DNA of 22,491 nt, from IMG/VR virus record IMGVR_UViG_3300032047_000149, positions 1 to 22,491 of that record; one strand, given 5' to 3'. Below, one piece after another: positions 2,946-22,491 of the stretch. The notes beneath the pieces were generated by a model. That model was not told the DNA's origin. It saw only the letters and a list, made by a program, of their open reading frames with translations, and did no database searches. Origin of the DNA: a virus. The position numbers and the translations under genes are program-made. Positions within the stretch are counted from its first letter, which is position 1, and the number at the start of each line of letters is the position of its first letter.

Positions 2946-2955
2946 GCGAGGCAAT

Positions 2956-3027: not shown

Positions 3028-3045
3028 CTAGAGAAGGAGACCGCT

Positions 3046-3510: not shown

Positions 3511-3739
3511 TAAAACTATTGGTGTCACTATTGTATGTGATGAAGCTACGTATGATGATGTAGAAATTATTATTGGTGGCGCCGAAGTTTTTATAAGGCA
3601 GTACGACGAGAGCAAAGAAGAGTACGATCTAATTAGATTTAGTCCTCGTATGTTCGGAGAGATGCTCGTGTCAATGGATAAGGATGAAGGAACTTATCAA
3701 GGAAAGGATCTGTTAAATGACCTTGCTAAAGATAAATAA
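3488..3739 (+). CDS. Small hypothetical protein, 83 aa
   Basis: An acidic protein with alternating hydrophobic stretches (IGVTIVCDEA, VEIIIGGAEVFI) suggests a small beta-rich fold. No family is recognised. I choose ATG at 3488 over the in-frame TTG at 3485, since AAAGGAG at 3474-3480 is 7 bases away. It overlaps the upstream gene by 23 bases and the downstream nuclease gene by 23 bases, in different frames, so it is tightly coupled to both. Confidence 0.65.
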   Translation: MFTVEKDDKTIGVTIVCDEATYDDVEIIIGGAEVFIRQYDESKEEYDLIRFSPRMFGEMLVSMDKDEGTYQGKDLLNDLAKDK

Positions 3740-4211
3740 TTTAATCCTATCCGGTCTTATCTTTAACGACCAAGGTCACTGGAAGTCCCAGAAACCCATG
3801 GACCCCGAAAAGAACTTTGGTTTTCTTTACTGTGTGTATAATAAAAGTGCTAACAAGTACTATATAGGTATGAAACAATACAAACGAGGCGGTAAGAAAA
3901 CGAGAGCACGTAAAATAAGAGGAAAAACTGTTAGGAAAGCAAATGAAAAGTATGGGACACCATCTAACTGGAAGGAGTATACTACATCTTCAGAGGAACT
4001 TAAAAAAGATTTCTCAAAAGATAAAAAAGTATTTGCATTTCTCTGCATAAAAGAGTATAAAACGAAAGGAGGGTTAGTCTATGCCGAAGCTAATCTGCAG
4101 CATAAGCTTGATGTTATGATTAGTGTAGACAAGAAAACGGGAGAAAAGCTCTATTACAATAAGGCAGTAGCGGCAATTAGATTTGTCCCGAAGGAGTATT
4201 ACAACTTATAA
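3717..4211 (+). CDS. GIY-YIG family endonuclease (SegE-like)
   Basis: This 164-residue protein has the GIY-YIG hallmarks in order. GFLY is at 35-38, YYIG at 48-51, and a basic linker rich in Arg/Lys follows. SNWKEYTTSS at 83-92 matches the 'W..Y..SS' segment of phage SegE-like members. E124 in VYAEANLQ is the expected metal-binding Glu, and a late Asn lies at 148. The family cuts DNA using one metal ion; phage members are homing enzymes or act in recombination. It occupies the place where T7 keeps endonuclease I between SSB and the polymerase, so a resolvase-like duty is possible (inference). The start is ATG 3717 with AAAGGA 8 bases upstream; an ATG at 3798 (MDPEKNFGFLY) is the alternative. 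Confidence 0.7.
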   Translation: MTLLKINNLILSGLIFNDQGHWKSQKPMDPEKNFGFLYCVYNKSANKYYIGMKQYKRGGKKTRARKIRGKTVRKANEKYGTPSNWKEYTTSSEELKKDFSKDKKVFAFLCIKEYKTKGGLVYAEANLQHKLDVMISVDKKTGEKLYYNKAVAAIRFVPKEYYNL

Positions 4212-4226
4212 AGGAGGCGTTCGAGA

Positions 4227-6056: not shown

Positions 6057-6475
6057 TGTTTGTAGCAGAAGAAGTACAAGAGTTCATTAAAGATCGAGCA
6101 ACAAGAGACACTTATTTTAAAACTAAATTTTATCCTAAGTATAGAACAGAAGGATACCAAGTATACTGGATCAACACTGTAAGGCATGAAGGATTAAACG
6201 AAGGTTATGTAGGTATAGCCCCTTTATGTAGTTACTCTATAAGAAAAAGATATGAAGTGGAAGTCTGGTATTATAATACTTATGGGGATCAAGATATAGG
6301 TAGAAAATATTTGTTAGATAATATGATAGCTAATTACCCTGACTTGCAGTTTAATATACTGTACTCTAATTTATCTAGGGATCAGGCTAACGCTCATGAA
6401 AGGTTTTTAAGACCTAGTAATAACTACGCTGAGAACCGTAACCCAGGTAACTGGAATACAAAGAAAGGAGGTTAA
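6056..6475 (+). CDS. Putative GIY-YIG-like nuclease
   Basis: The 139-residue protein carries a weaker but complete set of GIY-YIG landmarks: VYWI at 36-39, YVGIA at 51-55, Arg63 or Arg65 a short way downstream, and HERFLRP at 114-120 with E115 as the candidate catalytic Glu. It ends with an Asn/Gly-rich tail (NYAENRNPGNWNTKKGG). The 'E..LRP..N...KGG' ending resembles short phage GIY-YIG proteins. It starts inside the stop of the DNA polymerase gene and ends 1 base before the exonuclease start. Its position is therefore between two core replication genes, suggesting either an inserted homing-type nuclease or a domesticated repair/recombination enzyme. Confidence is moderate because motif spacing is unusual, with a 12-residue insert between GIY and YIG. 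Confidence 0.55.
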   Translation: MFVAEEVQEFIKDRATRDTYFKTKFYPKYRTEGYQVYWINTVRHEGLNEGYVGIAPLCSYSIRKRYEVEVWYYNTYGDQDIGRKYLLDNMIANYPDLQFNILYSNLSRDQANAHERFLRPSNNYAENRNPGNWNTKKGG

Positions 6476-6476
6476 C

Positions 6477-7145
6477 ATGAATGTTTATATTGATGGAGAC
6501 CTGATGATACACCGTTGTGTATGGAATAACGATATACAAGGTATGAAAGATAAAGCAATAGATCTTCTTGAAGATATAATGCATGAGACTCAAGCTGAAA
6601 ACGGTAAGATAGCTGTGGGAGGCGCTAACAACTTTAGAAAAGCTATTTACCCTGAGTATAAAGCTAACAGAAAGAAAGATGAGGACCCTGAAAGAAAAGA
6701 AATGTTTTCAGCAGCCTATAAATTCTTTGCTGAAGAGTTAGGCTCAGTAGCCGCTGTAGGGCAAGAAGCAGATGACTTACTGGCTATATGGCATACTGAA
6801 GAGCCTGGAATTATTGTGTCTATAGATAAAGACATGCTTCAAGTCCCAGGTATGCACTTCAACAATGCTAGATGGGAGTACACTAAAATGGAAGAGGCAG
6901 AGTCTAATTATCTTCTTCATAAACAAATACTTATGGGAGATAGCTCTGATAATATTAAAGGCCTTCCAGGGATAGGCCCTAAGAAAGCAGAAGCTATGCT
7001 TGAAGGTAGAGGAAAAGATTTAAGAAAGGCTGTATGTAAAGCTTACAAAGAATTAATAGGGAAAGGATGGGAAGAAGAATTACAACTAAATACTGACTTA
7101 ATTTACCTAAGGAGAAAGTTTGACGATAGGTATTTAATAGTATAA
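6477..7145 (+). CDS. 5'-3' exonuclease (T7 gp6 / FEN-like)
   Basis: This 222-residue protein is a member of the Pol I 5'-nuclease/flap endonuclease family. It has YIDGD at 4-8 and a helical-arch type motif 'FRKAIYPEYKANR' at 53-65. The acidic clusters are EADD (97-100) and DKD (117-119), with GDSSDN at 154-159 followed by the helix-three-turn-helix DNA-binding motif GLPGIGPKKAEAML (162-175). It would remove RNA primers and flaps and resect ends during replication and recombination. A near-perfect Shine-Dalgarno AAAGGAGGT (6464-6472) ends 4 bases before the ATG, suggesting strong translation. It lies between the second GIY-YIG-like gene and primase-helicase. Confidence 0.9.
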   Translation: MNVYIDGDLMIHRCVWNNDIQGMKDKAIDLLEDIMHETQAENGKIAVGGANNFRKAIYPEYKANRKKDEDPERKEMFSAAYKFFAEELGSVAAVGQEADDLLAIWHTEEPGIIVSIDKDMLQVPGMHFNNARWEYTKMEEAESNYLLHKQILMGDSSDNIKGLPGIGPKKAEAMLEGRGKDLRKAVCKAYKELIGKGWEEELQLNTDLIYLRRKFDDRYLIV

Positions 7146-7168
7146 CTGGCGATGAAAGGAGAGAGGAC

Positions 7169-8764
7169 ATGGCTAGATTTTTAAGACATGAACCATGTGA
7201 TAAGTGTGGTTCAAGCGATGCAGTAGCTGTCTATGACGATGATGTACCAAACAAGTGTATGTCATGTGGGCACCTACATAGAGTAAACGAAGACTTTGAA
7301 AGAGAGGAAAGAGAGATGAATACCCAATTTAATATAGTCGATTTACCTTACGGTACAATCGAAGACAGAAAAATATCTAAGGATGTTTGCAAGGCTTTTA
7401 ATGTGGTTAAGAGTGTAGATACTCATGGGGTAACTGATAAGATATATTATTCTTATTATAAAGATAAGACCCTATCAGGCTACAAGGTAAGGGCTATGCC
7501 TAAAGCTTTTACCATAGCCGGTAATCTCGGCGATGAGTTGTTCGGTCAACATGCCTTTACCCCAGGAGGCAAAAGGTTAGTCATCACCGAAGGCGAAGAA
7601 GACGCTTTAGCTGTAGCTGAGTGCTCTAAACAACAGTATAATCTTATTTACCCTGTTGTGTCTATTGCCAGTGCTAATAACTTACGCGCTGTAGTAGAGC
7701 AACGTGAATGGATAAGATCATTCGAGGAAGTAGTGTTGTTTGTTGATCGGGACGATGCTGGCAAAGCAGCCATAGATAAACTGGCTTCTATTATTGGCTA
7801 TGATAAAGTTAAAGTAGCTACCCCTAACAACAAAGATGCTAGTGAAGAGTACACTCTGTTAGGTAAGAAACATGTGATGGAAGCTATATGGAACGCTCAA
7901 GTCTATAATCCTCAGTTTATACTCACCAGTAATGATCTATGGAAATCACTTGAGGACTATAATAATATTAAATCTAATCCTTATCCTGATTGTTTCCCGG
8001 AGCTAAACGATAAACTTAAAGGTATGAGGTTCGGTGAGATAACTCTATGGACCTCAGGTACTGGAGCAGGTAAATCTACTTTACTAAGAGAAATAATGCT
8101 AGATATAATAACTAAAACCGAGGATAAAATAGGTATTATATCTCTTGAAGAATCCCCAGCTGAAACAGCGAGGAAGCTGGCGGGTATGGCTTTGAATAGA
8201 AATCCCTCTAAAGAAGAGATACCTATGAAGGAACTTAAGGAAGGATTCGATAAAGTATTTAAAGGAGATAGAGTGTTAGTGTTAGACCATGCCGGTAGTA
8301 TGAACGAAGGTATAGTTAACCAACTAGAGTATATGGCCTTACGAGGCTGTAAGTATTTATTCATAGATCATATTACTATACTTGTATCTGAGGGTGCGGA
8401 AGGGCTAACAGGTAATGAAGCTATAGATAAGATTATGAATGACTTACTAAGAATATCTAAACAACATAATGTGTGGATAGGCTTAGTATCACACCTAAGG
8501 AAAATGCAACAAACAGGTAAGTCTTTTGAGGAAGGACATATGCCTACAGTGGACGACATAAGAGGTTCTGGTTCTATAAAGCAAATCTCACACGATATAA
8601 TTGCTTTTGCAAGAGATATATCTAATGATAATGAAGATGCTAGGAACACGATATCTCTTAAAGTACTTAAGTCTAGGTTTACAGGAGATACAGGCCCTGC
8701 TGGACAAGTTAAGTATAATTCAGACACGGGCAGGTTAAGCCCAACAAGTGAAGTAACATTCTAA
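7169..8764 (+). CDS. Bifunctional DNA primase-helicase (T7 gp4-like)
   Basis: The 531-residue protein has a full T7 gp4-like layout. The zinc-binding domain is C10-X2-C13...C30-X2-C33. The TOPRIM primase has TEGEED (140-145) and FVDRDDAG (191-198). The helicase core has Walker A SGTGAGKST (296-304), ISLEES (324-329), a Walker B strand ending in D400, the DNA-binding loop GSGSIKQ (466-472) and a likely arginine finger R482. It synthesises primers and unwinds DNA ahead of the fork. The C-terminus ends in Phe (SEVTF). In T7 a terminal Phe of gp4 contacts the polymerase, although the strongly acidic tail of gp4 is reduced here. GGAGAGAGG lies just before the start. Confidence 0.95.
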   Translation: MARFLRHEPCDKCGSSDAVAVYDDDVPNKCMSCGHLHRVNEDFEREEREMNTQFNIVDLPYGTIEDRKISKDVCKAFNVVKSVDTHGVTDKIYYSYYKDKTLSGYKVRAMPKAFTIAGNLGDELFGQHAFTPGGKRLVITEGEEDALAVAECSKQQYNLIYPVVSIASANNLRAVVEQREWIRSFEEVVLFVDRDDAGKAAIDKLASIIGYDKVKVATPNNKDASEEYTLLGKKHVMEAIWNAQVYNPQFILTSNDLWKSLEDYNNIKSNPYPDCFPELNDKLKGMRFGEITLWTSGTGAGKSTLLREIMLDIITKTEDKIGIISLEESPAETARKLAGMALNRNPSKEEIPMKELKEGFDKVFKGDRVLVLDHAGSMNEGIVNQLEYMALRGCKYLFIDHITILVSEGAEGLTGNEAIDKIMNDLLRISKQHNVWIGLVSHLRKMQQTGKSFEEGHMPTVDDIRGSGSIKQISHDIIAFARDISNDNEDARNTISLKVLKSRFTGDTGPAGQVKYNSDTGRLSPTSEVTF

Positions 8765-8776
8765 GGAGAGAAAAAT

Positions 8777-11197
8777 ATGAGTGGTATAGAAGAAGTAGCA
8801 AACTACCTCCGAGAGAGGGTAGAGAAAGTAAATCCTAATAATCCCAAGGCTAACTCAGGTGCTGTGCTTCTTAAGTTTTATTCTAAGTTTAACGAAGAGG
8901 CAGAGAAAGTAGTTGTTATGGCAACTGACATAATACAAGCTTTCTTTTCCAGAGACACCCGTGCTGTGCCAGCAGGTAAAGCTAAACTTACAGCTTTATC
9001 TACTAGAATAGGGTCAACAATAACTAAGTATATAACAAAAGAAAATTTATCTTGGCGTAATGAAATATGTTTAGGAGATTTAATGTTAGAAGCCTTCCTG
9101 CAGCGGGGCTATATAAAGATTTATAGGGACCCGGGTTTCTCTGAGCTAGATAAAGACGCACCTTTCATGGTCGAACCTACAAGCTATTGGGCTGAGATAA
9201 ATGTAATACCTGTGGCAGAAGACAAGGACGTTCTTATCGCGACAGAACACAACCAACCAAAGGAACTAAACAACCTATTCAGGGGCGGGAGGCCTATAAT
9301 TAAAGGTTGGGATGATGAACACGCTAAAGAGTTTAACCGACTATTGGATAAACCCTTTGTTAACGCAGCCAATAAGCTCGAACAACAAAAGTGGAAGATA
9401 AATAAAAAGATCTATGATGTAATTCAAACTAAATTGTTAGATATACTACCACATATACCTGATATGCCCGAAGAGGGTTCCAAGTTAGACCTTAAGAATG
9501 CTTACCGGGCAATGAAGAAAAGAGATACTAAGAAAACTAGAGATCGTTATAACAAGACCGCTGAACTCTGGAATAAAAAGCTTAATGTGCTCAGGTCCAT
9601 GTCTAAAACAAACGAGATAAGAATAACTTTACGTAAAGCAGAGGCTATGCTTAACTTAGAGGAATTCTACCAGACTATAGAGTTTGATTATCGAGGTCGT
9701 ATATATTATAGAGAACCTTTCTTAAACTACCAGGGTTCCGATATGGCAAGAGGTCTTATGATGTTTGCTGAGGGGGACCAACTTAACGAAGATGGTTTAG
9801 ACGCCCTTAAAATACATACTGCTAATTCATATAATCAGACTTACGATATTAACAGTATACCTAAGTGGGTAGAATGGAATTATAAGGAGCACTTAGAAAA
9901 AGAAGGATTAGACAATATATCGGTAGATAAAATGTCTCTTAACGATAGAATAATGTGGTGTGAAGAGAACGCTGATATGATTCTTATGACTGCCACCGAC
10001 GGTACTATACATGATTGTGAAAAGCCTTTCGTATTCTTAGCCTGTTGCTTTGAGTGGCAAGCTATTGAAGAAGATATTAATCATAAGGTGTGTATACCCT
10101 GCCCCATAGACGGTACGTGTAATGGTTACCAACACTCAGCTGCTATAGCTAAAGATGGTGATACGGGTCTGTACGTAGGCCTGGAGGATACAAGCATCCC
10201 CGTTGATCTTTATATACAAGTATCTAAATCATTATTAGACTCTGAGAAAAAGTTCTTTGAAGATAAAGGAATGAACTTATCTCAGATAAGGAAAGGAATA
10301 GCTAAGCGAGCCACTATGACGAGAGCTTACTCAGCTGGAGAAGAAACAATAGCAGACAGTATGTTCAGTGACCTATATCAATTTGGTTATGATACTAAGT
10401 TTAATATTTCTATGTTAGACTGCGAGTATCTAGCTAAGAAAATAGTAGAAGCTATTGGTAAGGTCTGCCCGGGAGGACAGAAAACAATGAAGTACTTACA
10501 GAACCTAGCAGCTTATGAGTTAGGTATCTTTACAGTATACGATAAAGATGGGAATGTAATTTCCCTTAACCAACGTAGAAAGGACTATGAGAAGGCGAAG
10601 AAGATGAGAGCACAGCTCAGAGAAGACCCCAACAATAAAGAGTTACTTCAAGAACTCAACCAGCTTTCTAATGATATGACTCAACGTACTAGCGTACTTG
10701 AACGAGGCAATGGTAGTAATCATATCACTTGGTCAGCCCCCTCAGGATTCCCAATAAGATATGAATCCTTTTTAACTAGAGCAGAAAAGTGTTTGTCTAC
10801 ACTCCGTGGAGTACAAGGTGGTCAGAAAGGCCAGCCAGGTAGAATCAGACACGTAGCGCAGGTATCCACTGAGCACGCAGATAAACGAGCGTTCGCAGCG
10901 GGTATATCACCTAACTACATTCATTCACAGGATGCTGCTCACATGGCTATAGTAATTAGTAGATGGAATAAAGCTTTCGGTGCAGTACACGACTCATTCT
11001 CTACTCACCCTAATAATATTAAAGAGCTCTCACAGTTAACACGAGACGTGTTTAGAGAGATGTACGAAAAAGATAATGTGTTTGAAGGTATAAAAACAAA
11101 TATACTATCTGATTCTAGTAAGTGTGATGTAGAAGTACCTGAAAATGGTGACTTAGAGATCGAGTTAGTCTCTGATTCTACTTACTTTTTTGCATGA
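8777..11197 (+). CDS. Single-subunit DNA-directed RNA polymerase (T7 gp1-like)
   Basis: The 806-residue enzyme carries DYRGR (304-308), motif A DGTCNGYQH (445-453), motif B K510 to Y518 with T7-like spacing of 8, NYIHSQDAAHM (713-723) and motif C HDSFSTHP (738-745). The C-terminus ends FFA, resembling the T7 'foot' FAFA. The Gly after the motif B Tyr in T7 (Tyr639-Gly640) is Ser519. Motifs A and B are about 30 residues closer than in T7. Motifs B and C are about 48 residues further apart because of a charged helical insertion at about 588-645, near where T7 keeps its specificity loop. Unlike T7, where it is gene 1, the gene is last of the replication genes. AGGAG lies 8 bases upstream. It probably transcribes middle or late genes from its own promoters. 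Confidence 0.95.
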   Translation: MSGIEEVANYLRERVEKVNPNNPKANSGAVLLKFYSKFNEEAEKVVVMATDIIQAFFSRDTRAVPAGKAKLTALSTRIGSTITKYITKENLSWRNEICLGDLMLEAFLQRGYIKIYRDPGFSELDKDAPFMVEPTSYWAEINVIPVAEDKDVLIATEHNQPKELNNLFRGGRPIIKGWDDEHAKEFNRLLDKPFVNAANKLEQQKWKINKKIYDVIQTKLLDILPHIPDMPEEGSKLDLKNAYRAMKKRDTKKTRDRYNKTAELWNKKLNVLRSMSKTNEIRITLRKAEAMLNLEEFYQTIEFDYRGRIYYREPFLNYQGSDMARGLMMFAEGDQLNEDGLDALKIHTANSYNQTYDINSIPKWVEWNYKEHLEKEGLDNISVDKMSLNDRIMWCEENADMILMTATDGTIHDCEKPFVFLACCFEWQAIEEDINHKVCIPCPIDGTCNGYQHSAAIAKDGDTGLYVGLEDTSIPVDLYIQVSKSLLDSEKKFFEDKGMNLSQIRKGIAKRATMTRAYSAGEETIADSMFSDLYQFGYDTKFNISMLDCEYLAKKIVEAIGKVCPGGQKTMKYLQNLAAYELGIFTVYDKDGNVISLNQRRKDYEKAKKMRAQLREDPNNKELLQELNQLSNDMTQRTSVLERGNGSNHITWSAPSGFPIRYESFLTRAEKCLSTLRGVQGGQKGQPGRIRHVAQVSTEHADKRAFAAGISPNYIHSQDAAHMAIVISRWNKAFGAVHDSFSTHPNNIKELSQLTRDVFREMYEKDNVFEGIKTNILSDSSKCDVEVPENGDLEIELVSDSTYFFA

Positions 11198-11205
11198 GGT
11201 GTAAC

Positions 11206-11418
11206 ATGGGAAATAAAAATTATAACTGGAGGTATCTCCAGGGTATGAAGACAGTAACAGACGAGATATACTGTGAGACCCTAGACCTACCTATAGATCT
11301 GGCCTACACACCAGAAATCAATGAGTGCTTTATAGCAGAACAGCAAGACCCAGAGAAAGCCCGACAGGAAATAAGAATCCTTATGGCTAACCGAGGGATA
11401 TTACCAGAAGGATATTAA
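11206..11418 (+). CDS. Small hypothetical protein, 70 aa, paralogue of its neighbour
   Basis: No known family. I choose ATG 11206 because GAGG at 11196-11199 lies 6 bases upstream; an upstream in-frame ATG at 11194, overlapping the RNA polymerase stop, is the alternative. The central segment TVTDEIYCETLDLPIDLAYT aligns with a segment of the next gene, sharing the pattern T-D-E-x-x-C-E-x-x-x-L-P-I-x-L-A-x-x-P-x-x-N. The pair is probably a tandem duplication. Its location right after RNA polymerase and before the terminator makes it the penultimate gene of the rightward operon. Confidence 0.65.
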   Translation: MGNKNYNWRYLQGMKTVTDEIYCETLDLPIDLAYTPEINECFIAEQQDPEKARQEIRILMANRGILPEGY

Positions 11419-11420
11419 TC

Positions 11421-11681
11421 ATGGCAGAAAAACCAAACGTGAATATGATGTATAAACTAGGGGATACTTCTACAACTGATGAAGAGATATGTGAGATGTA
11501 TTCTTTACCTATTACTTTAGCTAGAAACCCTAAGTTAAATTACGCTGTGGTAGATGCAGTGTACAAAGACAATATAGCCGACTTAATTAGAGGAGGTTAC
11601 ACTAGGAAAACTGCTACGGAAATAGCGGATAGAAACAGAGTAGCAGCTTTAAAACAAGTAAAGCAAGTAGAGAAAATGTAA
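11421..11681 (+). CDS. Small hypothetical protein, 86 aa, last gene of the rightward operon
   Basis: This paralogue of the preceding gene shares TTDEEICEMYSLPITLARNP (residues 18-37). It is longer at the C-terminus, with a helical basic tail (RKTATEIADRNRVAALKQVKQVEKM). GAAGG lies in the end of the upstream gene, two codons before its stop. The gene ends 3 bases before the terminator hairpin begins. Function is unknown. A small C-terminal basic helix could bind nucleic acid or another protein, but that is a guess. Confidence 0.65.
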   Translation: MAEKPNVNMMYKLGDTSTTDEEICEMYSLPITLARNPKLNYAVVDAVYKDNIADLIRGGYTRKTATEIADRNRVAALKQVKQVEKM

Positions 11682-11684
11682 TAA

Positions 11685-11722
11685 AAAATCCCCAAGATTC
11701 TTAATTGAACCTTGGGGATTTT
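11685..11722. terminator. Bidirectional intrinsic terminator between convergent operons
   Basis: AAAATCCCCAAG (11685-11696) pairs perfectly over 12 bp with CTTGGGGATTTT (11711-11722) across a 14-base loop. The arms end in A-runs on one side and T-runs on the other, so the hairpin has a U-tract in both directions. It fills the 45-base gap between the rightward replication operon and the leftward virion operon. Confidence 0.9.
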
Positions 11723-11726
11723 AATT

Positions 11727-14700
11727 TTAATTACTCATATTATTACTAGGGCCTTTTTTATTATTAAACTCATCGTATAGAATTTCAGCGAGGCCTCTAA
11801 CTTTTCTTCCGTCATTAGCTATAGTTCCTCTAGCTATTCTTTCTAAATTTACTATATGTTTGTTAGGTTTATCGTTTTTAGCATAATCTCTATTATAACC
11901 ATATTTTATTAAGAACTTATACTCTTTGAAGTCACTTATACCTAAGTGTTCTCTTAGTATTTGTATTAAGTTTACAAACTGTTCTTTACTAACATATACA
12001 TTGCTTCTGTAAAAAGGATTATCGTTGACCCTAACGTCATCTAACCCTATATAACCGTTAGCTTTAGCTGCCGCAACAGTAGCTATATTTTTATCTAAAG
12101 CACTTAAATGAGTTTTTCTAATTGCACTCCTCTCTTTTTCAGTTTCAGAGAAGAAAGGGTCTAATTCTAAAGTTCTTCTGTATAACTCATCAAAAGTTTC
12201 TGTTAATGCATTATAAGAACTAAAAGTTTTACCGTCTGCTAAAAGAACATTTTGAGTTCCTATATTTACTTCATCCGTTCCACTAGTAGCTTTGCTTAAT
12301 GCTACATCAAACTTACCTAACATCTCTTCGAAGTAAGCATTGCCACCACTGTTAGGTACTTTACCCATCATTCTTTCCATAACAGCTTTAGGTGCTATAT
12401 TATTATAAGCGTTAGTCATAAATAAAACTGAATCAGCGCTCATTATAGAAGCGTCGTGTATGTTTATAATGTTTAGGATAGAATCAGGGTCTCCCGATTG
12501 AGCAAATAAAGTAGCTAAATTTATCATAGCACTATCGGAGTTTTGAATAGGTAAAACAGGTAAACCATTTTTAAGTTGGGTACCGCCCACACCTAAAGCT
12601 AAAGGCTCGTCTCTGTCTTTACCTGAATCGATAAAACGCTGTAGCTGAGCTAGTCTTGCTCTGTTGGTAGAAGAATCAGAAGCAGCTGCAGGGTCTTTCA
12701 TTAGTTTTAAATTAGGTACAGAGATATCTCCTACTTTTGTTGTCTCTATCCCCGCTAATTGATTAACTAGCTTTTGTCGTTTCCTTATAGGTAACCAAGT
12801 ATCAGCCCCTATATTAAAAGTAGTTCCTTCTAGTATGCCATTGTATTCTGTGTCAGCACGGAGAATAGCCATTACAGGAGCTAGAGCTCTCATGGCACTT
12901 TGATACCCACTTAACTCTGCAAGATGATTTTGTGCACCCATAGCGAATACATTAGACATGTCTTCGAATAATCTTTTCTTGGCAGCCGCTTGTCCTTTAG
13001 GTGTTCTAGGAAATTTACTTTCATAAAAGTCAGTTAATTTATTTGAGATATGTTCAGGGACAGTATTTAAAATTTCAGTAACTTCTGAGTACATCTTTAA
13101 AAAAGTTTTACCGTAGAGCCCTGCAACTAATGGTCTTCTAAATACAACCTTAGAAGCATTGAATCCATGATTGTTTTTTCCAAATAAAGATAAATCAATA
13201 AAGAATTGACCTACCGCGCCTTGAAAGCCTTCATTAATATCGTCTTGTGAATCTAAAGCTGCTAAAACATCTTTACCTACCTTATATTCTATTGACTTTG
13301 TTTCTGGTATTATAGAAGCTTCTACTACTCCAGAGTATAACTTCTCTCTTAAGTCTTTATAAGGAGGAACTGTAGTCTCTGGTAGCATACCTAGTATTTT
13401 AGCATTATCTATGCCTCCGAAAAACATACTAATGTTTGTAGCGTTAGATTGTTTACCGTCTTCTTCATACACAAAACTAAAACGATGAGGTAAACGATTT
13501 TTATCTGCTTCTGAGAACAAATGTGTATCCTCTAGTATACTGTAAGGATATTGCCACTCACCAGGGTTGTCTGTTAACATCTCTAGTATCTGAGGATCCA
13601 TATCTAATGTACCATCTGCTAACCTAGGAAAAGTAACAGTAGGCGTCCCATCAGTCTTTGATTGAGCTCTAAGTTTTAATTGTGAGTTTAATTCATCAAT
13701 TTTTTTACCTAACTCTAGGGCTTGACTCATCCTATCTATAGAATGTTCTATTGCTAGTCTAGGAAATCTATTAATATCGTACCTTCTTTGAGGTTCCATC
13801 CCGTCTACCGGAAATTCTTTTAACATAGTTTGACCTAAAGAATAATGATACCCAAGTATTAATCTATCTTGTTTAGAGAGAGACGCTATTTTTCTATGAA
13901 CATGTTCTCCAACTTTCCCCCCAGGCATAGTCTCTGCTGCTAAAAAAACTTGGTTAGCTAGCCTCTTAACTCTATTGTTATAAGCTGTACTATTAAATTT
14001 TTCATTTGAATCTAACACGATAGGGTCATTTACAAAAGCCATTACTGGCCTAGACATCTTTTTATCTAATTGAATATTACCTTCGTTTACTATAAACCAT
14101 CTGCCAGTAGCATCAGAAGCTTTAACACTGTAGAACCTTCTTTGCCCATCGGCGACTTTTTCTTTTGCTAATTCTAAATTTCTTCTTATATTATTTACTT
14201 TGTCTTCAATTATCCTATTAGCAAGCTGATCTTCTCTATCTTGTGAGGCTTCTTCCCATGTTGCCCCTTCAGGTACCTCTTCTGGGCTAACTAAAGGTGG
14301 TTTTTGATTACCAGCACTATCTGTTGTAGCATTACTTTTAAACCTATCAAAATCTCTTTTAGTTAATTCTCCTAGCGTACTAGCGAAAGGACTATCATAA
14401 TAAGATCCGGTAACTATTTTTTGTCCAGTAGATTTTTTAATATAAAAACTATTTTTTTGGTTAGCTAAAACGTCGTTAAACATAGCCTCTGCTACTAAAA
14501 CTCTATTTAAGTCTACTAAGTTAGGAACTTGACCTTGATGCTTGTAATAATTTTCTTGCACTTTAGCCATACGTTTACTTTGGTCTAATTTTCCCTGCTG
14601 TTTTAAAGCTCTTATGTAGGGTAAAGTATCCATAGCTATTTTATCTACTATAGGAGTAAAAGACATAGGGATATTAGTGTCAGCTCTACTGCTAGATAGA

Positions 14701-16151
14701 TAAGTTGACACTAAATTTTCGACTGGTACTCCCATGAAAATATTATTAGGCCCTTCAATAGGTATTGTTACACCGTTTTTATTTACACCTAGGTCTATAA
14801 CGCCCTGCTCAATTAAAAAATTAGCTATACCGGCCCCTACTATTCTAGAGTTAGCCTTTCCTGTATTGAAAAACTTCTCGTTGCCAGTTAACTCTTTAAG
14901 GTTACGGGTTATATCATCTATTAGAGCCCTAATAGAATTTTCAGATTTAAGATCAGCTAAAATAGTATTATACTTACTTTTATTTTCAGTAGTAGCTTGG
15001 ATAATGCCCTTTTCTCTTCTTTTTTTAATGGCGTCTTGAACGGCAAAGTCGTGGGATGCTTTAGCTAGAGAGTAAGTTTCTTCCTCTTCCCTATACTTTG
15101 GGCTATTTATATTTTGCTCTGTGTACTTAAAAGTTTTTATATTGTTTAAAGTCGCAGCAGCCGCTAACACCATAGACGAAGCAGCTTGTTGTAAGGCTGG
15201 AGTGTTTATCTCACCAGTTTCTGTTTTTATTGGTATACCTATGTTCGTTCGTAGCGCTTTTATAAATTCATTGTTACCTAAAGCAACACTAGGCACAGTA
15301 ACTTCCTCTCCGTTTTGAACAGTAGCTTCACCTACCATAGCCTTCATAAACCAGTCTGCTAAATTTTTAAAGTCTTTATAACGTGATCTCTCAAAGGCTA
15401 CTTGTTCTCTGAGCTGTCTAGTTGGCACATAACTTCCAGTGTTACTGTCGTAGTATAGTTCTCTTTTAGTATAGTATTTAGAAACAAAAGGACTCAACTC
15501 ATCGACAGCTATTTCTAAGTCTGCAGCTACATTTTCCTCTGTTTGCCCTTCGGCTGGGTACAGATTAAAAAGATTTGGGGGTATTATATCTCGCCCTTTT
15601 AACATTAGCTCTTGTTTTTGTTCAGGGGTTAAGCTCTGAAGTACACTAATATTAAAATTTTGCCTTTGAGTTTCGCTTAAAGCTTCGTACTCTCCTTTAG
15701 GTAATTGTGATTTAGCAAAGTCTTGGAAGTTTTGTACTATCCTAGTGTTATCTATACTATCAGTTTGAAAATCAAGAACACCCTTTTCGATATCTGCTTT
15801 TTCTTCTTTCTCTGCGATTAAATTTTGAGCCTGATTTAAAATTCTTTCTTTTTCTTCTCTTTCTTCTGTAGGTAACTCTGAAAGATCTTCTCCCGCTTTT
15901 TGTTGTGTTATTTCTACGAGTTCTTGAAAGTCGTAATCTTCAAGGGCCTCTTCAGCTGAAACAATAGGCATTACGGGGGCAAAGTCGTCTTCTATCTCGG
16001 TTACAGGCATCTTCATAGTTTCCACAATATTTTGTGTAGACCTAGTAGGCCCTTGAGTCTCTGCCGTTTTATCTTCTCTACCTAATGCTTTTCTTAATTG
16101 TGCTATTAAATCATTTTGTGAAGCTGGGTTCTGTATATTAGGTAGTACCAT
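11727..16151 (-). CDS. Predicted virion RNA polymerase, N4 vRNAP-like, divergent single-subunit RNAP
   Basis: This 1474-residue protein carries, in order, the motifs of the T7/N4 RNA polymerase superfamily. A DATGR element is at 680-684 (R684). Motif A EEDGKQSN is at 896-903 (D898). Motif B has K1001 and Y1013 followed by Gly, with VAGLYGK at 1009-1015. Motif C NIHDAS is at 1230-1235 (D1233), preceded by LPIQNSDSAM at 1200-1209. The Lys-to-Tyr distance is 12, as in N4 vRNAP (K666, Y678), not 8 as in T7. The motif A-to-Lys distance (103) is also close to N4 (107). About 680 N-terminal residues precede the core, including an acidic helical start (50-125). It is the last gene of the leftward virion operon, matching the N4 layout as I recall. 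An AAGGA precedes its ATG. I infer it is packaged and transcribes early genes after ejection. Confidence 0.75.
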   Translation of the reverse strand: MVLPNIQNPASQNDLIAQLRKALGREDKTAETQGPTRSTQNIVETMKMPVTEIEDDFAPVMPIVSAEEALEDYDFQELVEITQQKAGEDLSELPTEEREEKERILNQAQNLIAEKEEKADIEKGVLDFQTDSIDNTRIVQNFQDFAKSQLPKGEYEALSETQRQNFNISVLQSLTPEQKQELMLKGRDIIPPNLFNLYPAEGQTEENVAADLEIAVDELSPFVSKYYTKRELYYDSNTGSYVPTRQLREQVAFERSRYKDFKNLADWFMKAMVGEATVQNGEEVTVPSVALGNNEFIKALRTNIGIPIKTETGEINTPALQQAASSMVLAAAATLNNIKTFKYTEQNINSPKYREEEETYSLAKASHDFAVQDAIKKRREKGIIQATTENKSKYNTILADLKSENSIRALIDDITRNLKELTGNEKFFNTGKANSRIVGAGIANFLIEQGVIDLGVNKNGVTIPIEGPNNIFMGVPVENLVSTYLSSSRADTNIPMSFTPIVDKIAMDTLPYIRALKQQGKLDQSKRMAKVQENYYKHQGQVPNLVDLNRVLVAEAMFNDVLANQKNSFYIKKSTGQKIVTGSYYDSPFASTLGELTKRDFDRFKSNATTDSAGNQKPPLVSPEEVPEGATWEEASQDREDQLANRIIEDKVNNIRRNLELAKEKVADGQRRFYSVKASDATGRWFIVNEGNIQLDKKMSRPVMAFVNDPIVLDSNEKFNSTAYNNRVKRLANQVFLAAETMPGGKVGEHVHRKIASLSKQDRLILGYHYSLGQTMLKEFPVDGMEPQRRYDINRFPRLAIEHSIDRMSQALELGKKIDELNSQLKLRAQSKTDGTPTVTFPRLADGTLDMDPQILEMLTDNPGEWQYPYSILEDTHLFSEADKNRLPHRFSFVYEEDGKQSNATNISMFFGGIDNAKILGMLPETTVPPYKDLREKLYSGVVEASIIPETKSIEYKVGKDVLAALDSQDDINEGFQGAVGQFFIDLSLFGKNNHGFNASKVVFRRPLVAGLYGKTFLKMYSEVTEILNTVPEHISNKLTDFYESKFPRTPKGQAAAKKRLFEDMSNVFAMGAQNHLAELSGYQSAMRALAPVMAILRADTEYNGILEGTTFNIGADTWLPIRKRQKLVNQLAGIETTKVGDISVPNLKLMKDPAAASDSSTNRARLAQLQRFIDSGKDRDEPLALGVGGTQLKNGLPVLPIQNSDSAMINLATLFAQSGDPDSILNIINIHDASIMSADSVLFMTNAYNNIAPKAVMERMMGKVPNSGGNAYFEEMLGKFDVALSKATSGTDEVNIGTQNVLLADGKTFSSYNALTETFDELYRRTLELDPFFSETEKERSAIRKTHLSALDKNIATVAAAKANGYIGLDDVRVNDNPFYRSNVYVSKEQFVNLIQILREHLGISDFKEYKFLIKYGYNRDYAKNDKPNKHIVNLERIARGTIANDGRKVRGLAEILYDEFNNKKGPSNNMSN

Positions 16152-16154
16152 AAT

Positions 16155-19100
16155 TTATTCCTTATAAAAATTAATTAAGTCGGCATTAGCAAGAGCTTCC
16201 CGTGCTGGTTTAATTGAACCAATAAAAGGAGTATACTTAGCAACTCTTTCTTGTAAGTTCTCATCGCCTTTTTTAACGTTAGTATAAATAGCATTTAAAG
16301 AGGGAGATTGATTTACGATAGCCTCCCCTAAATTAGTAAGTATAGGTGTGTACATAGACTTTTCATTAAACCTATCTATAGCTTCTATCGCCATTCCCGG
16401 AGTACCTAACCAACCTGTATAAGAAGCAGCTCTAAACTCTTCAGTATCAATCCAATCAGGGTCTTCTCCTTCATCTAACCAAGGTGATTTTTCGCCGTAT
16501 ACCATTAAGTCTTTTAATAATTGAGACACCATAGCTAACCAGTAGGTACCCATTATCACGGAGAAGGTAGCGAATGTCATCCCTGGAGGCCCTCTTCTAA
16601 TATAATTTTGCCACACAGTAGGCATTATATTTGCTGTAAAAGTAGCCGCAAATCTTTTATATTGAGTAAACAAATAGAACCTAGGGTCTTCTATTAGCTT
16701 AGGGGCATCACCTTTCTTGGGTCTAACAGATAGCTCATCTGTAAAATTAGTTACACCTATTCTATACTGTTGTAGTAGCTTAACTTCTGCTGCATCCGAC
16801 TCTTCGTTCTTAGCCATAGTTTCAAATTGAGAGAGAGGAGTAGTTCTATATCTTTGTAAGATCTCTTTTTCTTTACCGTATAATCTTCTGACTCTATCTT
16901 CAACACTTCTTAGGCTTTGTTCAGACTTATTATCTAATTTATTGAAATAATCTACCAGAAAATCTACATCTAAACCATAACTGTTTAACATATCCCTGGA
17001 GTATCTACCCTGTTGAGTAACATTGCCTAAGATAAAATCATTATTCACATGCAGTATATGGTCTATTATTTTATCCCAAGCGAGAGCTCCTCTTCCTCCT
17101 CTGAAGGAAGCAGTTTGTTTTTCAACTTGATTTACAATATATAAAAGTTTAGTAGCTTTCTTGTAGGCTCCCGTTGAAGTGTTAGTGCTCTCTAAGGTAG
17201 CAGCGTCCGATCCAGTTACAACACCAGTCATAGCAACTCTGGTAAAGTCGTCATCACTTTTAACTAAATCTATTCTACTTTTAGGGGTAATTTTAGTGCC
17301 AGGAATTTTAGAGCCTATACTTTTCATCTCAGCAAGAGTAGCTCTACTGAACATACGAGCAGAAGTACTAACGGACCTCCACATTTGTCTAGGGGATAAA
17401 CCTATTAATCCAGTGCCAATTTCTGCCATATTAGCCCAGAAGTTAGTGTCCATGAAAGTAGCAGCGGAAAAGAATAACAGATTATCTTGTATGTACCGTG
17501 CTCTATTATCCTCTATTCTTTTATAATTACCTTGGTTCATATCGAGGTAATTGTTAACTACAAAAGCAATCCTACCTTTATCTTCCGCAGTAATTTCTCC
17601 AGCCTCATAAGCTTTCTCGATCATTTCAGCTGCGATATTACCTCTAGTTCCAAAGCGTTGAGCTGTAGAAATTCGTTTAGCGAAAGTGTTTAAGCTTTCT
17701 GCTACATTCTCGGCAGGTTTATTAGAAAGATATTTTTTAAATCCAGAGTTATTCTCAAACACACCTGCCTCTTCTAAACGAAGCCTATCTAAAGGAGAAA
17801 GAGTAGCATTTTTAATATCAGATACTATCTGTTGAGCTTTTTCTTCTGTAAATTTTACACGACCTTTAGCCCCAGGAGGAGGGTTGTATCCTCTAGTCTT
17901 TAAAAGTTTATCTATAAATTTTCTATCTTTAAATATATCTTGTTTAAAGTGTCTTGGCTTTAAAAAATAATCTTCTGTGATAGCGTCAGAAGATATACCT
18001 ATTCTTATACCCTTATCTTCCAAAGCTTTAACCTTCGCAGCCACTGTTAGCGCTAGTATCTTTAAATCTTGAACTACTTTTTCTAAAGGAGAGCCTGCCT
18101 CTATAGGTCTATTCACTTGTTCGTAGAATTCCCCTTTGTTTAACCCTACATTTTGATCGTAATCTCTAGGGCCAGGAGCATATAAGTGTAAATCGTTGTG
18201 TAACTGCTGGCTTAAAGAAGGCATAGATACACCTGAGTAAAGCCTTAAAGCGTCTAAAGAAGCTGCAAGGTTTTGCATGTGTATATTTATTTCGCCTTTA
18301 GCATTAACATAATAAGGTTTTAAAACTTTTTTAAAGGCTTCTACTGATCTCTTAGCTTGATCTAGCCCTGTGAACAAATTAAAAAACTCTCTGACATAAC
18401 CAGGGTTTTTAAATTTTCCTGCCATCTCTTGTAAAGACATAGGCTGCTTTTCTTTTCTTAGAGGAGTTACTTTCCCATCTACCTCTTTAAATTCTTTAGC
18501 AGCTCTAACTTTGTGATATTCATCAGCTACTTCTTCTAAAGTAAACTTTTTCCCTGCATTAGCCGGGTCTACTGTAATAGCCTTGTTAGGTCTATTCCTG
18601 GCATTCTCTTCCCACAGGGAAACTTCTGTTCTATCACTATCTGACTCAGGAGTAAACTCATACAATGCTCTATTAAAATCGTTTAGTTGTGAGAGAGTCT
18701 TAGGCAGAGTTATTCCGCCGCCCACACTAGCACCAATAGCAAAAGACTCTATCATCTTCAAAGCAGTATCTTCATAACTAAACTCTTGAGTAGGAGACCA
18801 AGCAGTAACCCCTATATCCTGAGTAAGCTCTTGTAGCGCTTCTGTACCGCCTTCCCATCCACCTCTTTTACCTATCTCTATCGCTAGATCCCTTATTGTT
18901 TTCTTCGCTACTAATTTTGCAGTAGCTTGGGCACCTAGTTCTGCACCTGTTTCTATTAAAATTTGCCGTATACTGTCATTAACTAAATTATTAGCATCAA
19001 TTATTATCTCTGCAGTTTGTTCAGTTAATTGTTCTGAAGTAAGATTAGGGTCTAAATCTTTAATTTTCTTTTGAACCATGAACTCTATTATTTCTTCTTT

Positions 19101-20393
19101 ACCTGCTTTAGTAAGTATATTAGCTGACCCAACAGAAGTCAATCCTTTTAAACCTAGCGCCTCAAAAGCAGCAATAGGTACCGCAATCCCAGCAGCAACT
19201 AAAGGGTCTCTTTCTTCTGGGGAAAAAGCCTGATAAACTTGAGATACTGCCATAATAAAAGAAGAACCCAAGGCCCCAGCTACCATTCCCGGAGGCCCTA
19301 GAATAAGTCCACCTCCAGCACTTGAGGCAGCTACTACGCCTAATTGAGGTGCATACTGTACTATACTATTGGAAATGAATCTCATTGCATCTAAAGGGTT
19401 TCTAACAGACCAAAAATCTGTGGTATAACCTGCATCTCGTATTCTTTCTGCATTATCTAAAGCCCAGTCATAACCCCAGGTATCTGCTTCTCCAGGGACG
19501 GCAAGGTCTCTAGCCCACTGAGAAAACCCTACAGCAGTATTTTCTAACATCCATAAACTTTTTTCTGCTGAGTTCCAAGTCTCTCCCCAATAACCTGGCT
19601 TGTCTTCTTTAGCATACCAGTCCCTAGCTTTGTTAGCTGTTACATAGTCTTCATTTAAGTTAGCAGAGTATTGAAGTACATCTCTATTTGCTTTTATTTC
19701 TTCTTCTAGTTCTTTTATTTTTTCTGGGTCTGTTTCTTTTATTAACTGAGCGTTTAACTTATTTATTTCCGATTGAAAAAAATTGTGTCTCTTATTTGGC
19801 TCAGGTTTGAGAGCATCCTCAAGCGATTCTCTTAAAAAGTCAGGCCTCATATTAGGCTTCTCGGTAAAAGTACCTCTAGATATTTGGTCTAATATTGCCC
19901 TTGCTTTATCTCCCGAAGACAACTCACTAGAAACAGACTTAAGGATATCTTCTTGTTCGCCTAATAGTCTCATAGTAAGTTGATCTTTAGACATCCATTT
20001 GTTAGCGCCTATAACTCTTTCTTGATGAAGATAATCGCTTAATAATTCCCCTTCTGGATTTTGCAAGTCCATAAGGCTTCTATCGTACTTATCTTTTTCT
20101 CTTGCTTTATTTATTAAAGTATCTCTACTAGCAGGAACTAAAGTATTAAAATTTTTTTCTCTAATAATATCGTTAATTAATTTTTTATGGTAAGGGCCCA
20201 TGTGACTTCCAGCATGGAAGGTTCCAAACTCATCTATCCTACTCATCTCCCCCGCGTCGAAGTAAGGAAGCCTAAAACTTTCTCCGTCAGGCCCTATAAT
20301 AGTATCACCATCGTACATATACATACTGCCTCTATCAGTTTCTACTGGCGCAGGGCTGTACAAGTCATTTAATTGATTTAAAAAGGTGCTCAT
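16155..20393 (-). CDS. Giant internal virion (ejection) protein with N-terminal SNase-like nuclease domain
   Basis: The first ~128 of 1412 residues match the staphylococcal nuclease fold: YDGDTI at 27-32 (D30), RLPYFDAGE at 41-49 (R41, D46, E49) and DKYDRSL at 101-107 (R105). These correspond to D21, R35, D40, E43 and R87 of the classical enzyme, with identical R-D-E spacing (5 and 3). An EGELLSDYLHQERV ending follows. Residues 345-415 are Gly/Ala-rich and hydrophobic (LGVVAASSAGGGLILG), as are 550-563 and 1272-1292, suggesting membrane-inserting segments. Charged helical stretches (200-240, 640-900) and a long helical C-terminus fill the rest. Size, order and membrane-like segments fit a DNA-ejection protein. 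No lytic transglycosylase motif was recognised. An AAGGAATAATT leader precedes the ATG, and the gene ends 3 bases from the next start. Confidence 0.7.
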   Translation of the reverse strand: MSTFLNQLNDLYSPAPVETDRGSMYMYDGDTIIGPDGESFRLPYFDAGEMSRIDEFGTFHAGSHMGPYHKKLINDIIREKNFNTLVPASRDTLINKAREKDKYDRSLMDLQNPEGELLSDYLHQERVIGANKWMSKDQLTMRLLGEQEDILKSVSSELSSGDKARAILDQISRGTFTEKPNMRPDFLRESLEDALKPEPNKRHNFFQSEINKLNAQLIKETDPEKIKELEEEIKANRDVLQYSANLNEDYVTANKARDWYAKEDKPGYWGETWNSAEKSLWMLENTAVGFSQWARDLAVPGEADTWGYDWALDNAERIRDAGYTTDFWSVRNPLDAMRFISNSIVQYAPQLGVVAASSAGGGLILGPPGMVAGALGSSFIMAVSQVYQAFSPEERDPLVAAGIAVPIAAFEALGLKGLTSVGSANILTKAGKEEIIEFMVQKKIKDLDPNLTSEQLTEQTAEIIIDANNLVNDSIRQILIETGAELGAQATAKLVAKKTIRDLAIEIGKRGGWEGGTEALQELTQDIGVTAWSPTQEFSYEDTALKMIESFAIGASVGGGITLPKTLSQLNDFNRALYEFTPESDSDRTEVSLWEENARNRPNKAITVDPANAGKKFTLEEVADEYHKVRAAKEFKEVDGKVTPLRKEKQPMSLQEMAGKFKNPGYVREFFNLFTGLDQAKRSVEAFKKVLKPYYVNAKGEINIHMQNLAASLDALRLYSGVSMPSLSQQLHNDLHLYAPGPRDYDQNVGLNKGEFYEQVNRPIEAGSPLEKVVQDLKILALTVAAKVKALEDKGIRIGISSDAITEDYFLKPRHFKQDIFKDRKFIDKLLKTRGYNPPPGAKGRVKFTEEKAQQIVSDIKNATLSPLDRLRLEEAGVFENNSGFKKYLSNKPAENVAESLNTFAKRISTAQRFGTRGNIAAEMIEKAYEAGEITAEDKGRIAFVVNNYLDMNQGNYKRIEDNRARYIQDNLLFFSAATFMDTNFWANMAEIGTGLIGLSPRQMWRSVSTSARMFSRATLAEMKSIGSKIPGTKITPKSRIDLVKSDDDFTRVAMTGVVTGSDAATLESTNTSTGAYKKATKLLYIVNQVEKQTASFRGGRGALAWDKIIDHILHVNNDFILGNVTQQGRYSRDMLNSYGLDVDFLVDYFNKLDNKSEQSLRSVEDRVRRLYGKEKEILQRYRTTPLSQFETMAKNEESDAAEVKLLQQYRIGVTNFTDELSVRPKKGDAPKLIEDPRFYLFTQYKRFAATFTANIMPTVWQNYIRRGPPGMTFATFSVIMGTYWLAMVSQLLKDLMVYGEKSPWLDEGEDPDWIDTEEFRAASYTGWLGTPGMAIEAIDRFNEKSMYTPILTNLGEAIVNQSPSLNAIYTNVKKGDENLQERVAKYTPFIGSIKPAREALANADLINFYKE

Positions 20394-20395
20394 AA

Positions 20396-22491
20396 TTATT
20401 CCTTTTCGAGGGCTATTTCTCCGTATCTAATAGCATAAAGTAAAGCAAAGAAAGGGTTAATTTTTTCAGAAGCTAATTCGACTGCGGATTTATTAACGCC
20501 TATAACTTCCCCTATAGTAGGCACAACAGTGTTAGGTGCTTTTTCTTTTTCTTCGTCTGTTAAACCTCTGCTAGGTAAACTAAAAATTCTTTCATTAGTT
20601 AAGTCATTAACAGAGAGACCTAACTTACCCATTATATTCTCTGCTGCTACGACTGTTTGTTGTGCCTCAACCATTTTATCTCTAGTATCTTTGCCTGGAT
20701 ATAATTTAAAGAAACTAGACATAGTTTGTTCATCTACTTTGGCAGATTTAAGTGGGTCTTTTATCATATCATCATCTAGTAGAGACATCTTAAGTCCTAT
20801 TTCTAAAGGAACACCTTCAGGTAAAGCATCTGACTCTATTAATCTGAAAGCTTTAGTTATAATATCCTCATTATTCTGAGGGTGAATTTTTTGATACTCT
20901 TTTAAAGCAGACACTAAATCATTAGGTGATTTAACCATATACTTCTCTAATCGTTTTACGTTATCTGCTTTTATTTGTTGAAGTGCGGTTAAACTGCCTG
21001 ACGTTGGGAAATCAAAAAGACTAGAGGCATATTTAGACATAGCAGCAGCATCATTAGTTAAGATATCTGTATTCATTTCCATGTATCTTTTCCCAACTCG
21101 GAATTGCCCAGTCTTATTACCAACAGCATCAACACCGTAGTAAACTCCAGGTTGTCCTTTTGCAGGAAATGCAACAAACAAAGCACCTGAACCTTTTTCT
21201 TTATCGTAAAAAGTTTTACCTTGCCCTTTGTTAAAATTGTAATCTATGTAATCGGCATCTGGTAACCTATTATTTGTATCAGCAATAGCGTTTTGAAGCG
21301 AACCTAATGTGTTCAAACCTGGAGCAGTAAGAGCCATTTTTAATATAGCACTAATTTTTTTCCTACCTTCTGTAGTGTAAGAAAATTTTGTATCATTGAA
21401 GTGTTGCTCTAAATCGTTTATACTTCTAGCTGCATTACTAGCGATAGAACCTTTAGCTGTAATTTGAGCTTTTTCTCTGGTTCTTACATCGTTTAATACT
21501 TGAGCGCCAGCCCAACGTAAAGAACCTGCATGAGAACCATCTGTTAATCTTCCTCCAGCATAATATAACAAGAATCTATAGGCATCCTTTTTATTAAAGC
21601 CTAAATTTTCTTCTATCCACTTCATAATGTTATTGCTAGATTTTTTACCATCTTTATCTTTACCGAGTTGCCCGCTTCTTTCTGAAACGTTTTTCATAAA
21701 GTCTTCGGCTATATTTTTCCCTGTGCCATTACTTAAAATTGCACCTGTTTTAGAAGATTCATCTAAAGCGAGTTGCATACCAGTAACAACGTCATAACCT
21801 CCTTGTTCATTTATTAACAGTTCATGTTTAAGGGTACCTTCTTTTGCGGGTTCATTTACCTTTTCTTGAATATAATTTTCAATGTCTCCTTCGGAGCGAA
21901 GCTGTATGGTATCATTTAATTTACCTGTTTTTGTTTCATTTCTTGGAGTAAGCATACGTTCTACAGCATCTAGTTGTACACCCCCCATAGCACCAGGTCG
22001 CCCATCAATGTTTTTAAAGGGAGAAGGAACATTGCCTAATCTAAGTTGTTCTTCTGTAGGCGAAGCTAAAACATCTTTAGAAAAAGTTTTACCCTGTTGT
22101 TCTTGAGCGTCTATTAACTGTGCTATATTAACAGGACTCATATCAGGATAATTTCTCCTTAAGTTTTCTATTTTTTGATTAAGAGGCATTTCTCTAAGCT
22201 CTTTAAAGTATTTTTTATCTCTTTGTTTAAGCTCGTTTAATGCATCTTTTCTTTTCATGTTTTCAGTTATGTTCGGAAAGGGTATTTCACTTGCAATAGC
22301 TTTATTCTTTTGATATTCAGAATCACCTGATAAAAGTTTTTCTACTTCCCTAGTTACGTAAGCATCATCTTCAGGGCCATAACCTCCCATAAGAGCCGGT
22401 ATAACGTAAGCATCATCTTTAGGGTTATAACCTCCCATAAGAGCCGGTATATTTATTAAATTATTATTTCCTAAGGCATAATTGCCAAGTA
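20396..22491 (-). CDS. Large virion-associated protein, N-terminus outside the window
   Basis: At least 697 residues are open on the minus strand to the window edge. An internal Met at 22438 gives 680 residues, but it has no Shine-Dalgarno and 17 in-frame codons without a stop precede it, so the real start is probably upstream. The visible N-terminus contains two copies of a 16-residue repeat (IPALMGGY.P.DDAYV). The rest is charged and mainly helical, with Gly-rich parts such as GGRLTDGSHAGSLRWAGAQ and GGYDVVTGMQLALDES. No known enzyme motif is identified. It lies first of the three visible genes of the leftward operon, directly before the 1412-residue protein, so an internal or tail-linked virion role is likely by position only. 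Confidence 0.6.
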   Translation of the reverse strand, partial: LGNYALGNNNLINIPALMGGYNPKDDAYVIPALMGGYGPEDDAYVTREVEKLLSGDSEYQKNKAIASEIPFPNITENMKRKDALNELKQRDKKYFKELREMPLNQKIENLRRNYPDMSPVNIAQLIDAQEQQGKTFSKDVLASPTEEQLRLGNVPSPFKNIDGRPGAMGGVQLDAVERMLTPRNETKTGKLNDTIQLRSEGDIENYIQEKVNEPAKEGTLKHELLINEQGGYDVVTGMQLALDESSKTGAILSNGTGKNIAEDFMKNVSERSGQLGKDKDGKKSSNNIMKWIEENLGFNKKDAYRFLLYYAGGRLTDGSHAGSLRWAGAQVLNDVRTREKAQITAKGSIASNAARSINDLEQHFNDTKFSYTTEGRKKISAILKMALTAPGLNTLGSLQNAIADTNNRLPDADYIDYNFNKGQGKTFYDKEKGSGALFVAFPAKGQPGVYYGVDAVGNKTGQFRVGKRYMEMNTDILTNDAAAMSKYASSLFDFPTSGSLTALQQIKADNVKRLEKYMVKSPNDLVSALKEYQKIHPQNNEDIITKAFRLIESDALPEGVPLEIGLKMSLLDDDMIKDPLKSAKVDEQTMSSFFKLYPGKDTRDKMVEAQQTVVAAENIMGKLGLSVNDLTNERIFSLPSRGLTDEEKEKAPNTVVPTIGEVIGVNKSAVELASEKINPFFALLYAIRYGEIALEKE
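22355..22450 (-). repeat. Two tandem 48-bp coding repeats
   Basis: Repeat one (22450-22403) and repeat two (22402-22355) encode IPALMGGYNPKDDAYV and IPALMGGYGPEDDAYV. They are nearly identical at DNA level, differing at only a few positions. More copies may lie upstream of the window edge. The unit is short, Gly/Tyr-containing and acidic, reminiscent of a flexible or binding segment, with no assigned function. Confidence 0.85.

Follow-up and report, generated by a model that had tools for sequence, protein, structure and literature searches.

A compact homologue of the N4 virion RNA polymerase encoded opposite a T7-like RNA polymerase in a phage of an almost uncultured group

Introduction

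Phage N4 relies on a virion RNA polymerase (vRNAP) followed by a heterodimeric RNA polymerase, RNAPII (PMC4496689). The literature regards a large packaged single-subunit RNA polymerase (RNAP) as a hallmark exclusive to N4-like phages (PMC7650795), and the vRNAPs of the Schitoviridae span 2,842-3,820 amino acids (aa; PMC10654107). Here we describe a 1474-aa protein encoded on the minus strand (11727..16151) of IMG/VR virus record IMGVR_UViG_3300032047_000149; the window, as the term is used below, is the whole 22,491-base contig. This open reading frame (ORF) encodes a genuine homologue of single-subunit RNA polymerases. Profile-profile comparison against decoys, a joint alignment and tree, and the predicted fold together establish its homology to the catalytic domain of N4 vRNAP. 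The phage almost certainly carries two distinct one-piece RNA polymerases, a T7-like enzyme made in the cell and an N4-like enzyme apparently built for packaging and injection.

Assembly of the family

As a sole query, the 1474-aa protein found no match in Pfam, PHROG or PDB sequences, nor in a scan of viral contigs in which it served as the direct query, and a scan of bacterial and archaeal genomes yielded no relative. The sole match among 50,697 GenBank phage records is gp33 of Roseobacter phage CRP-7, annotated as a 'hypothetical protein'. Relatives were gathered from IMG/VR, first via CRP-7 gp33 and then via the T7-like RNAP, and the resulting family comprises 90 non-redundant members (<75% identity) of about 1,100-1,500 aa (1116-1498). 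The PHROG RNA polymerase profile matches such relatives directly (6 of 9 members, best 1.4e-6), as does the PHROG virion RNA polymerase profile (1.9e-8), and textbook N4 motifs appear in distant members, for instance EVDGITNG (in L105) and LKYPLMTLPYG. A large IMG/VR survey for N4 vRNAPs with hidden Markov models dropped homologues shorter than 2,500 aa (PMC10654107). The family is easily missed, because the window protein itself lacks a direct database match and a cut-off of this kind would remove the family.

Catalytic motifs

The polymerase homologue and its elements are located as follows.

11727..16151, minus strand: compact single-subunit RNA polymerase homologue of virion type, 1474 aa, without cysteine
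11862..14594, minus strand: thumb/palm/fingers region, residues 520-1430, from an AlphaFold2 model (mean pLDDT 86.9, pTM 0.89)
14100..14114, minus strand: DxxGR-type element DATGR with R684, found in 90/90 relatives
13443..13466, minus strand: motif A, EEDGKQSN, with invariant D898
13107..13151, minus strand: motif B / O helix, K1001...R1005...Y1013 G1014 K1015, with R1005 at the catalytic Lys position
12522..12560, minus strand: conserved element preceding motif C, PVLPIQNSDSAMI, with D1206 (D in 80 and E in 10 of 90)
12450..12461, minus strand: motif C, IHDA, with invariant D1233 at a predicted beta-hairpin turn

Along the ORF the motifs follow in the order SDATGR (R684), EEDGKQSNA (D898), KVVFRRPLVAGLYGK (Y1013-G1014) and NIHDAS (D1233). 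R684, D898, Y1013 and D1233, each present in all 90 relatives, are the only invariant columns among the 911 window positions of the 90-sequence alignment, and these four coincide with catalytic positions of the T7 and N4 polymerases. G1014 is kept in 85 of 90 relatives, and within DxxGR the Arg alone is invariant across the family. When the sets are aligned jointly, R684 and both Asp residues fall in columns shared by 15/15 N4-type and 14/14 T7-like enzymes, and E896 of the window aligns with N4 E557, a residue whose role has been described (PMC4496689).

An earlier sequence-only reading of the window had placed a giant protein here, at the end of a virion operon, and had named a DATGR element, a motif A Asp, a Tyr-Gly pair and IHDAS, in that order, with K1001 as the motif B lysine. 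The ORF lies exactly there and the order of the motifs stands; the lysine assignment does not. K1001, twelve residues before the Tyr, is variable in the family (K31 R26 S12 A8 D8). Residue 1005, eight residues before it (Y-8), is K79 R10 G1 across the 90 relatives, and the same position is Lys in 15/15 N4-type vRNAPs and 14/14 T7-like RNAPs. Judged from the aligned columns, the catalytic motif-B lysine position is that of R1005 and not K1001. The window's clade thus departs from a strict Lys at Y-8 while keeping a basic residue, R1005.

This Arg, carried by 10 of 90 members, is what could be expected if the polymerase of the window's clade were an inactive, degenerate relic. Members of that clade, 26-30% identical overall, nevertheless conserve the Arg and have kept their remaining catalytic residues, which is not a pattern of decay, and we regard a relic as very unlikely.

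Homology to N4 and T7 polymerases

The family was compared by hhalign with an aligned set of 15 Schitoviridae-type vRNAP cores. Seven family sequences gave a score of 41.8 (P 0.0015, probability 17%; best block-shuffle decoy 33.6), a result that is only suggestive. With 37 members, a set that excluded those looking most N4-like, the comparison reached E 2.2e-10 and a score of 107.7, the best of 41 decoys scoring 22.7. All 90 members gave E 1.2e-16 to N4 vRNAPs, with the motifs in register, and E 9.8e-7 to T7-like RNAPs, bearing out the N4-type homology suspected from the letters. As a yardstick, N4 vRNAPs against T7-like RNAPs gave E 3.7e-7, and the family of the 1412-aa neighbour in the same operon, a negative control, gave E 0.3-0.4. 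An unguided joint alignment brought the catalytic columns of the family, N4 and T7-like sets together, and in the joint tree both the family (support 0.99) and the N4-type set (0.93) are monophyletic. Since each is separately monophyletic, the family is a sister of the Schitoviridae vRNAPs and not a member of their clade.

An AlphaFold2 model of residues 520-1430 was built from the 90-sequence alignment; an earlier model from 11 sequences (pLDDT 36) was set aside. The top Foldseek matches of the retained model in the PDB are T7 RNAP, mitochondrial RNAPs and the N4 mini-vRNAP (2po4/3c3l/9pnq), with probability 1.00 and E down to 4e-9, and a structure search of a viral library agrees with them. 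D1233 sits at a beta-hairpin turn, D898 at a strand end, and R1005 in a helix (480-493 of the model) that stops just before Y1013. In the model, this placement is as expected for motifs C, A and B, respectively, and the predicted chain shows a right-hand fold of palm, fingers and thumb, in line with the palm/fingers architecture that the sequence-only reading called for.

In principle, a giant ejection protein unrelated to polymerases might show these motifs by chance, a view to which the lack of any direct database match for the window protein alone would lend itself. We give it next to no probability: the invariant columns, the hhalign scores with their decoys, the joint alignment and the predicted fold rule it out.

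Pairing with a T7-like polymerase

Two convergent operons meet in the window. The plus-strand operon encodes a VWA-like protein, an SSB-like protein, a GIY-YIG nuclease, DNA polymerase A, an exonuclease, a primase/helicase and the T7-like RNAP. The opposing minus-strand operon encodes three giant proteins of 1474, 1412 and at least 697 aa, of which the 1474-aa ORF is the last gene.

8777..11197, plus strand: full T7-like single-subunit RNAP (PF00940), 806 aa, in the replication operon
11685..11722, both strands: hairpin with flanking A/T runs between the convergent operons (-20.5 / -24.9 kcal/mol, z -6.2 / -7.4)
16155..20393, minus strand: giant cysteine-poor protein, 1412 aa, a conserved neighbour adjoining the polymerase homologue gene
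20396..22489, minus strand: third giant protein, its N-terminus beyond the contig end, counterpart of CRP-7 gp35

The 806-aa protein matches PF00940 with E 4.5e-56 and 191 bits (curated cut-off 22), in keeping with its first identification from the letters alone. Its pairing with the vRNAP homologue, also proposed at that stage, is real and conserved. In 216 of 216 loci showing both genes, some of them from the same contig, the 3' ends face each other across a median gap of 684 bases. All 50 of the long records checked (29-64 kb) encode a PF00940 RNAP together with the vRNAP homologue; 40 of these records were reached by giant-protein queries. Of the 42 loci retrieved through the T7-like RNAP that extend 4 kb or more past it, 40 hold a family member, and one of the remaining two has a divergent member (E 3.7e-30). 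No description of a vRNAP with a T7-like second enzyme was found in the open-access literature. The hairpin between the operons is likely a bidirectional terminator, and the CRP-7 operon junction has an equivalent at 17814-17858.

The two modules differ in their divergence. In the early/replication module, the window (2408-11438) and locus L032 (11752-20810) are ~80% identical in DNA across 9 kb, and their T7-like RNAPs are 90% identical, while their giant late genes are only 29-35% identical. This break at the convergent junction suggests that the late module, vRNAP included, has been exchanged or evolves at a very different rate. In L039, a very divergent member (5540-9271, minus strand; E 3.7e-30) adjoins a T7-like RNAP 45% identical to that of the window, which again points to faster divergence in the late than in the early module.

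The cultured relative CRP-7

CRP-7 gp33 (MK613349, QBQ72826.1) is a direct homologue of the window protein, with 26% identity over 960 residues (window residues 446-1405). Its neighbours are the same: the T7-like RNAP, gp30, is convergent with the giants gp33-gp35 on the other strand, and these stand at the end of an operon holding capsid, portal and terminase genes. It differs from the window protein in its length (1235 aa) and in the replaced G of DxxGR (PATLR), and it has never been annotated as a polymerase. The accessible part of the CRP-7 paper reports a T7-like RNAP and no second polymerase (PMC6918029).

The CRP-7 genome holds five exact copies of TAGTCCNNTATTAAAAGG, all in intergenic gaps and co-oriented with the genes. 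Three are on the plus strand, at 2027, 7148 and 14765, the last of which stops 10 bases short of the T7-like RNAP gene, and two are on the minus strand within the late operon, at 38262 and 57212. The element, or a copy with one mismatch, also lies ahead of the RNAP genes of L062 and L013, and no convincing copy of it was found in the window. It has the look of a T7/T3-like promoter element and presumably resembles the T3 promoter. On the simplest reading of its distribution, the T7-like enzyme would use TAGTCCNNTATTAAAAGG for its own and the late genes.

Evidence for probable packaging

The polymerase homologue gene closes the virion operon, as gp50 does in N4. Cysteines per 1000 aa number 0.1 in the family, 0.0 in N4 cores and 0.03 in the 1412-aa neighbours, against 15.1 in T7-like RNAPs, and 80/90 family members, the window member included, have none at all. 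Lack of cysteine has served before as a hint of a vRNAP (PMC10747016). The late-operon position and the cysteine depletion together support packaging, and from them we infer that the protein is carried in the virion and ejected. Its 1412-aa neighbour is a probable ejection protein, and CRP-7 gp35 has an N-terminal pesticin/lysozyme-like domain, which suits an ejection protein.

The promoter-like elements on both strands of CRP-7 would also fit an RNA polymerase that is unpackaged and acts late in the same infection, early transcription being left to the T7-like enzyme or the host RNAP. Such an arrangement is quite unlikely: the cysteine depletion is shared with N4 vRNAP and the giant neighbours and not with T7-like RNAPs of the same genomes, and the gene stands at the virion-operon end, as N4 gp50 does.

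A second alternative is a virion or ejection protein in which the polymerase fold and residues are retained for another job, for example transcription-coupled DNA entry or replication priming. Its late operon and ejection-type composition would fit any injected protein, and no hairpin promoter was noticed in passing. The closest relatives are nevertheless RNA polymerases, and the residues for nucleotidyl transfer, complete in 90/90 relatives, argue for template-directed RNA synthesis; we consider another job unlikely.

A proposed transcription programme

The explanation that best accounts for the whole, and that is very probably correct, is that a compact packaged vRNAP starts transcription and the T7-like enzyme follows. 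A compact single-subunit DNA-dependent RNA polymerase would be expressed late, as the last gene product of the virion operon, and packaged in the capsid alongside two further giant ejection proteins; at the next infection it would be threaded into the cell together with the DNA. There it would transcribe the early/replication operon, including the T7-like RNAP gene. The T7-like RNAP would then amplify its own operon and transcribe the opposite late operon, in which the gene of the packaged enzyme lies, and the cycle would be closed. We infer both the catalytic activity of the compact enzyme and which enzyme reads which promoter.

Several points weigh against this explanation. The large C-terminal domain of N4 vRNAP is absent from the window family, and conservation is poor across the N-terminal 440 residues, which also lack a confident model. 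The TM-scores from Foldseek, taken over the whole chain, are a modest 0.4 or so. With Arg at the catalytic Lys position, members of the window's own clade are less certain to be active. The window is only a 22.5-kb fragment, and no N4-type hairpin promoter was noticed in passing, no aimed search having been made and the left genome end lying outside the window.

A broader proposal is evenly balanced in our judgment between holding and failing: that in a large lineage of short-tailed phages, almost none of them cultured, the compact packaged enzyme would serve entry and early transcription and the T7-like enzyme the rest, with no host RNAP from injection to lysis. The packaged-enzyme operon would also be an exchangeable unit, replaceable with the T7-like enzyme left in place, as the window and L032 suggest.

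Other features of the window and CRP-7

An Rfam search of the window gave no match, and repeat families across it are mostly at chance level. Two 48-base repeats (94%) at 22356-22451 code for repeated units of 16 aa close to the first visible residues of the third giant protein. A SegE-type GIY-YIG endonuclease (3717-4211) lies immediately before the DNA polymerase gene. Positions 1-690 encode a VWA-like DUF2201 protein, and the CRP-7 early region (2379-3404) has a MoxR-family ATPase; a MoxR/VWA pair in a phage early operon is possible. CRP-7 also has a group I intron (36986-37196, minus strand; RF00028, 79 bits), apparently lacking annotation, inside a split ribonucleotide reductase gene (gp46/gp44). 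An early intergenic gap of CRP-7, at 1436-1626, repeats ATAAAACCTTG-like units, a possible origin or early control region.

Comparison with known systems

The family represents a second deep lineage of the N4-type enzyme, less than half the size and paired with a T7-like polymerase. The same enzyme pair recurs across a large, almost uncultured phage group whose second enzyme had escaped notice. The family offers biochemistry a small natural vRNAP and allows the transcription programmes of N4 and T7 to be compared. A cultured host-phage pair exists in CRP-7 and the RCA Roseobacter strains FZCC0042 and FZCC0040.

Among described systems, the phiKZ-like jumbo phages likewise package an RNAP and then employ a second phage RNAP, although their virion RNAPs are multi-subunit and of an unrelated type. 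The putative vRNAP of the StenR_269 podophage and the large Zobellviridae ORFs (PMC10747016) invite the same argument from size and lack of cysteine. They were proposed from size, helical content, lack of cysteine and low-confidence models, and are likened to the present family by description only. T7-like RNAPs (PF00940, Autographiviridae) and mitochondrial RNAPs share the superfamily fold and catalytic residues, but differ in size and layout from the window protein, which has a late virion-type position and no cysteines; the profile distance of T7-like RNAPs from the family (E 9.8e-7) is also larger than that of N4.

The closest likeness is to N4 gp50 and the Schitoviridae vRNAPs, in the catalytic motifs and their order, the Glu at motif A -2, the place at the end of the late operon beside other ejection proteins, and the core without cysteine. 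The Schitoviridae enzymes are larger, with 2,842-3,820 aa divided among an N-terminal domain, the RNAP and a C-terminal domain against 1474 aa here. They have a strict ExDGxxxG (PMC10654107), a motif that some distant family members such as L105 (EVDGITNG) also carry, whereas EEDGKQSN of the window ends in N, and their motif-B Lys is Arg in the window's clade. In N4, finally, the second enzyme is the gp15/gp16 heterodimer, whereas here it is a one-chain T7-like RNAP.

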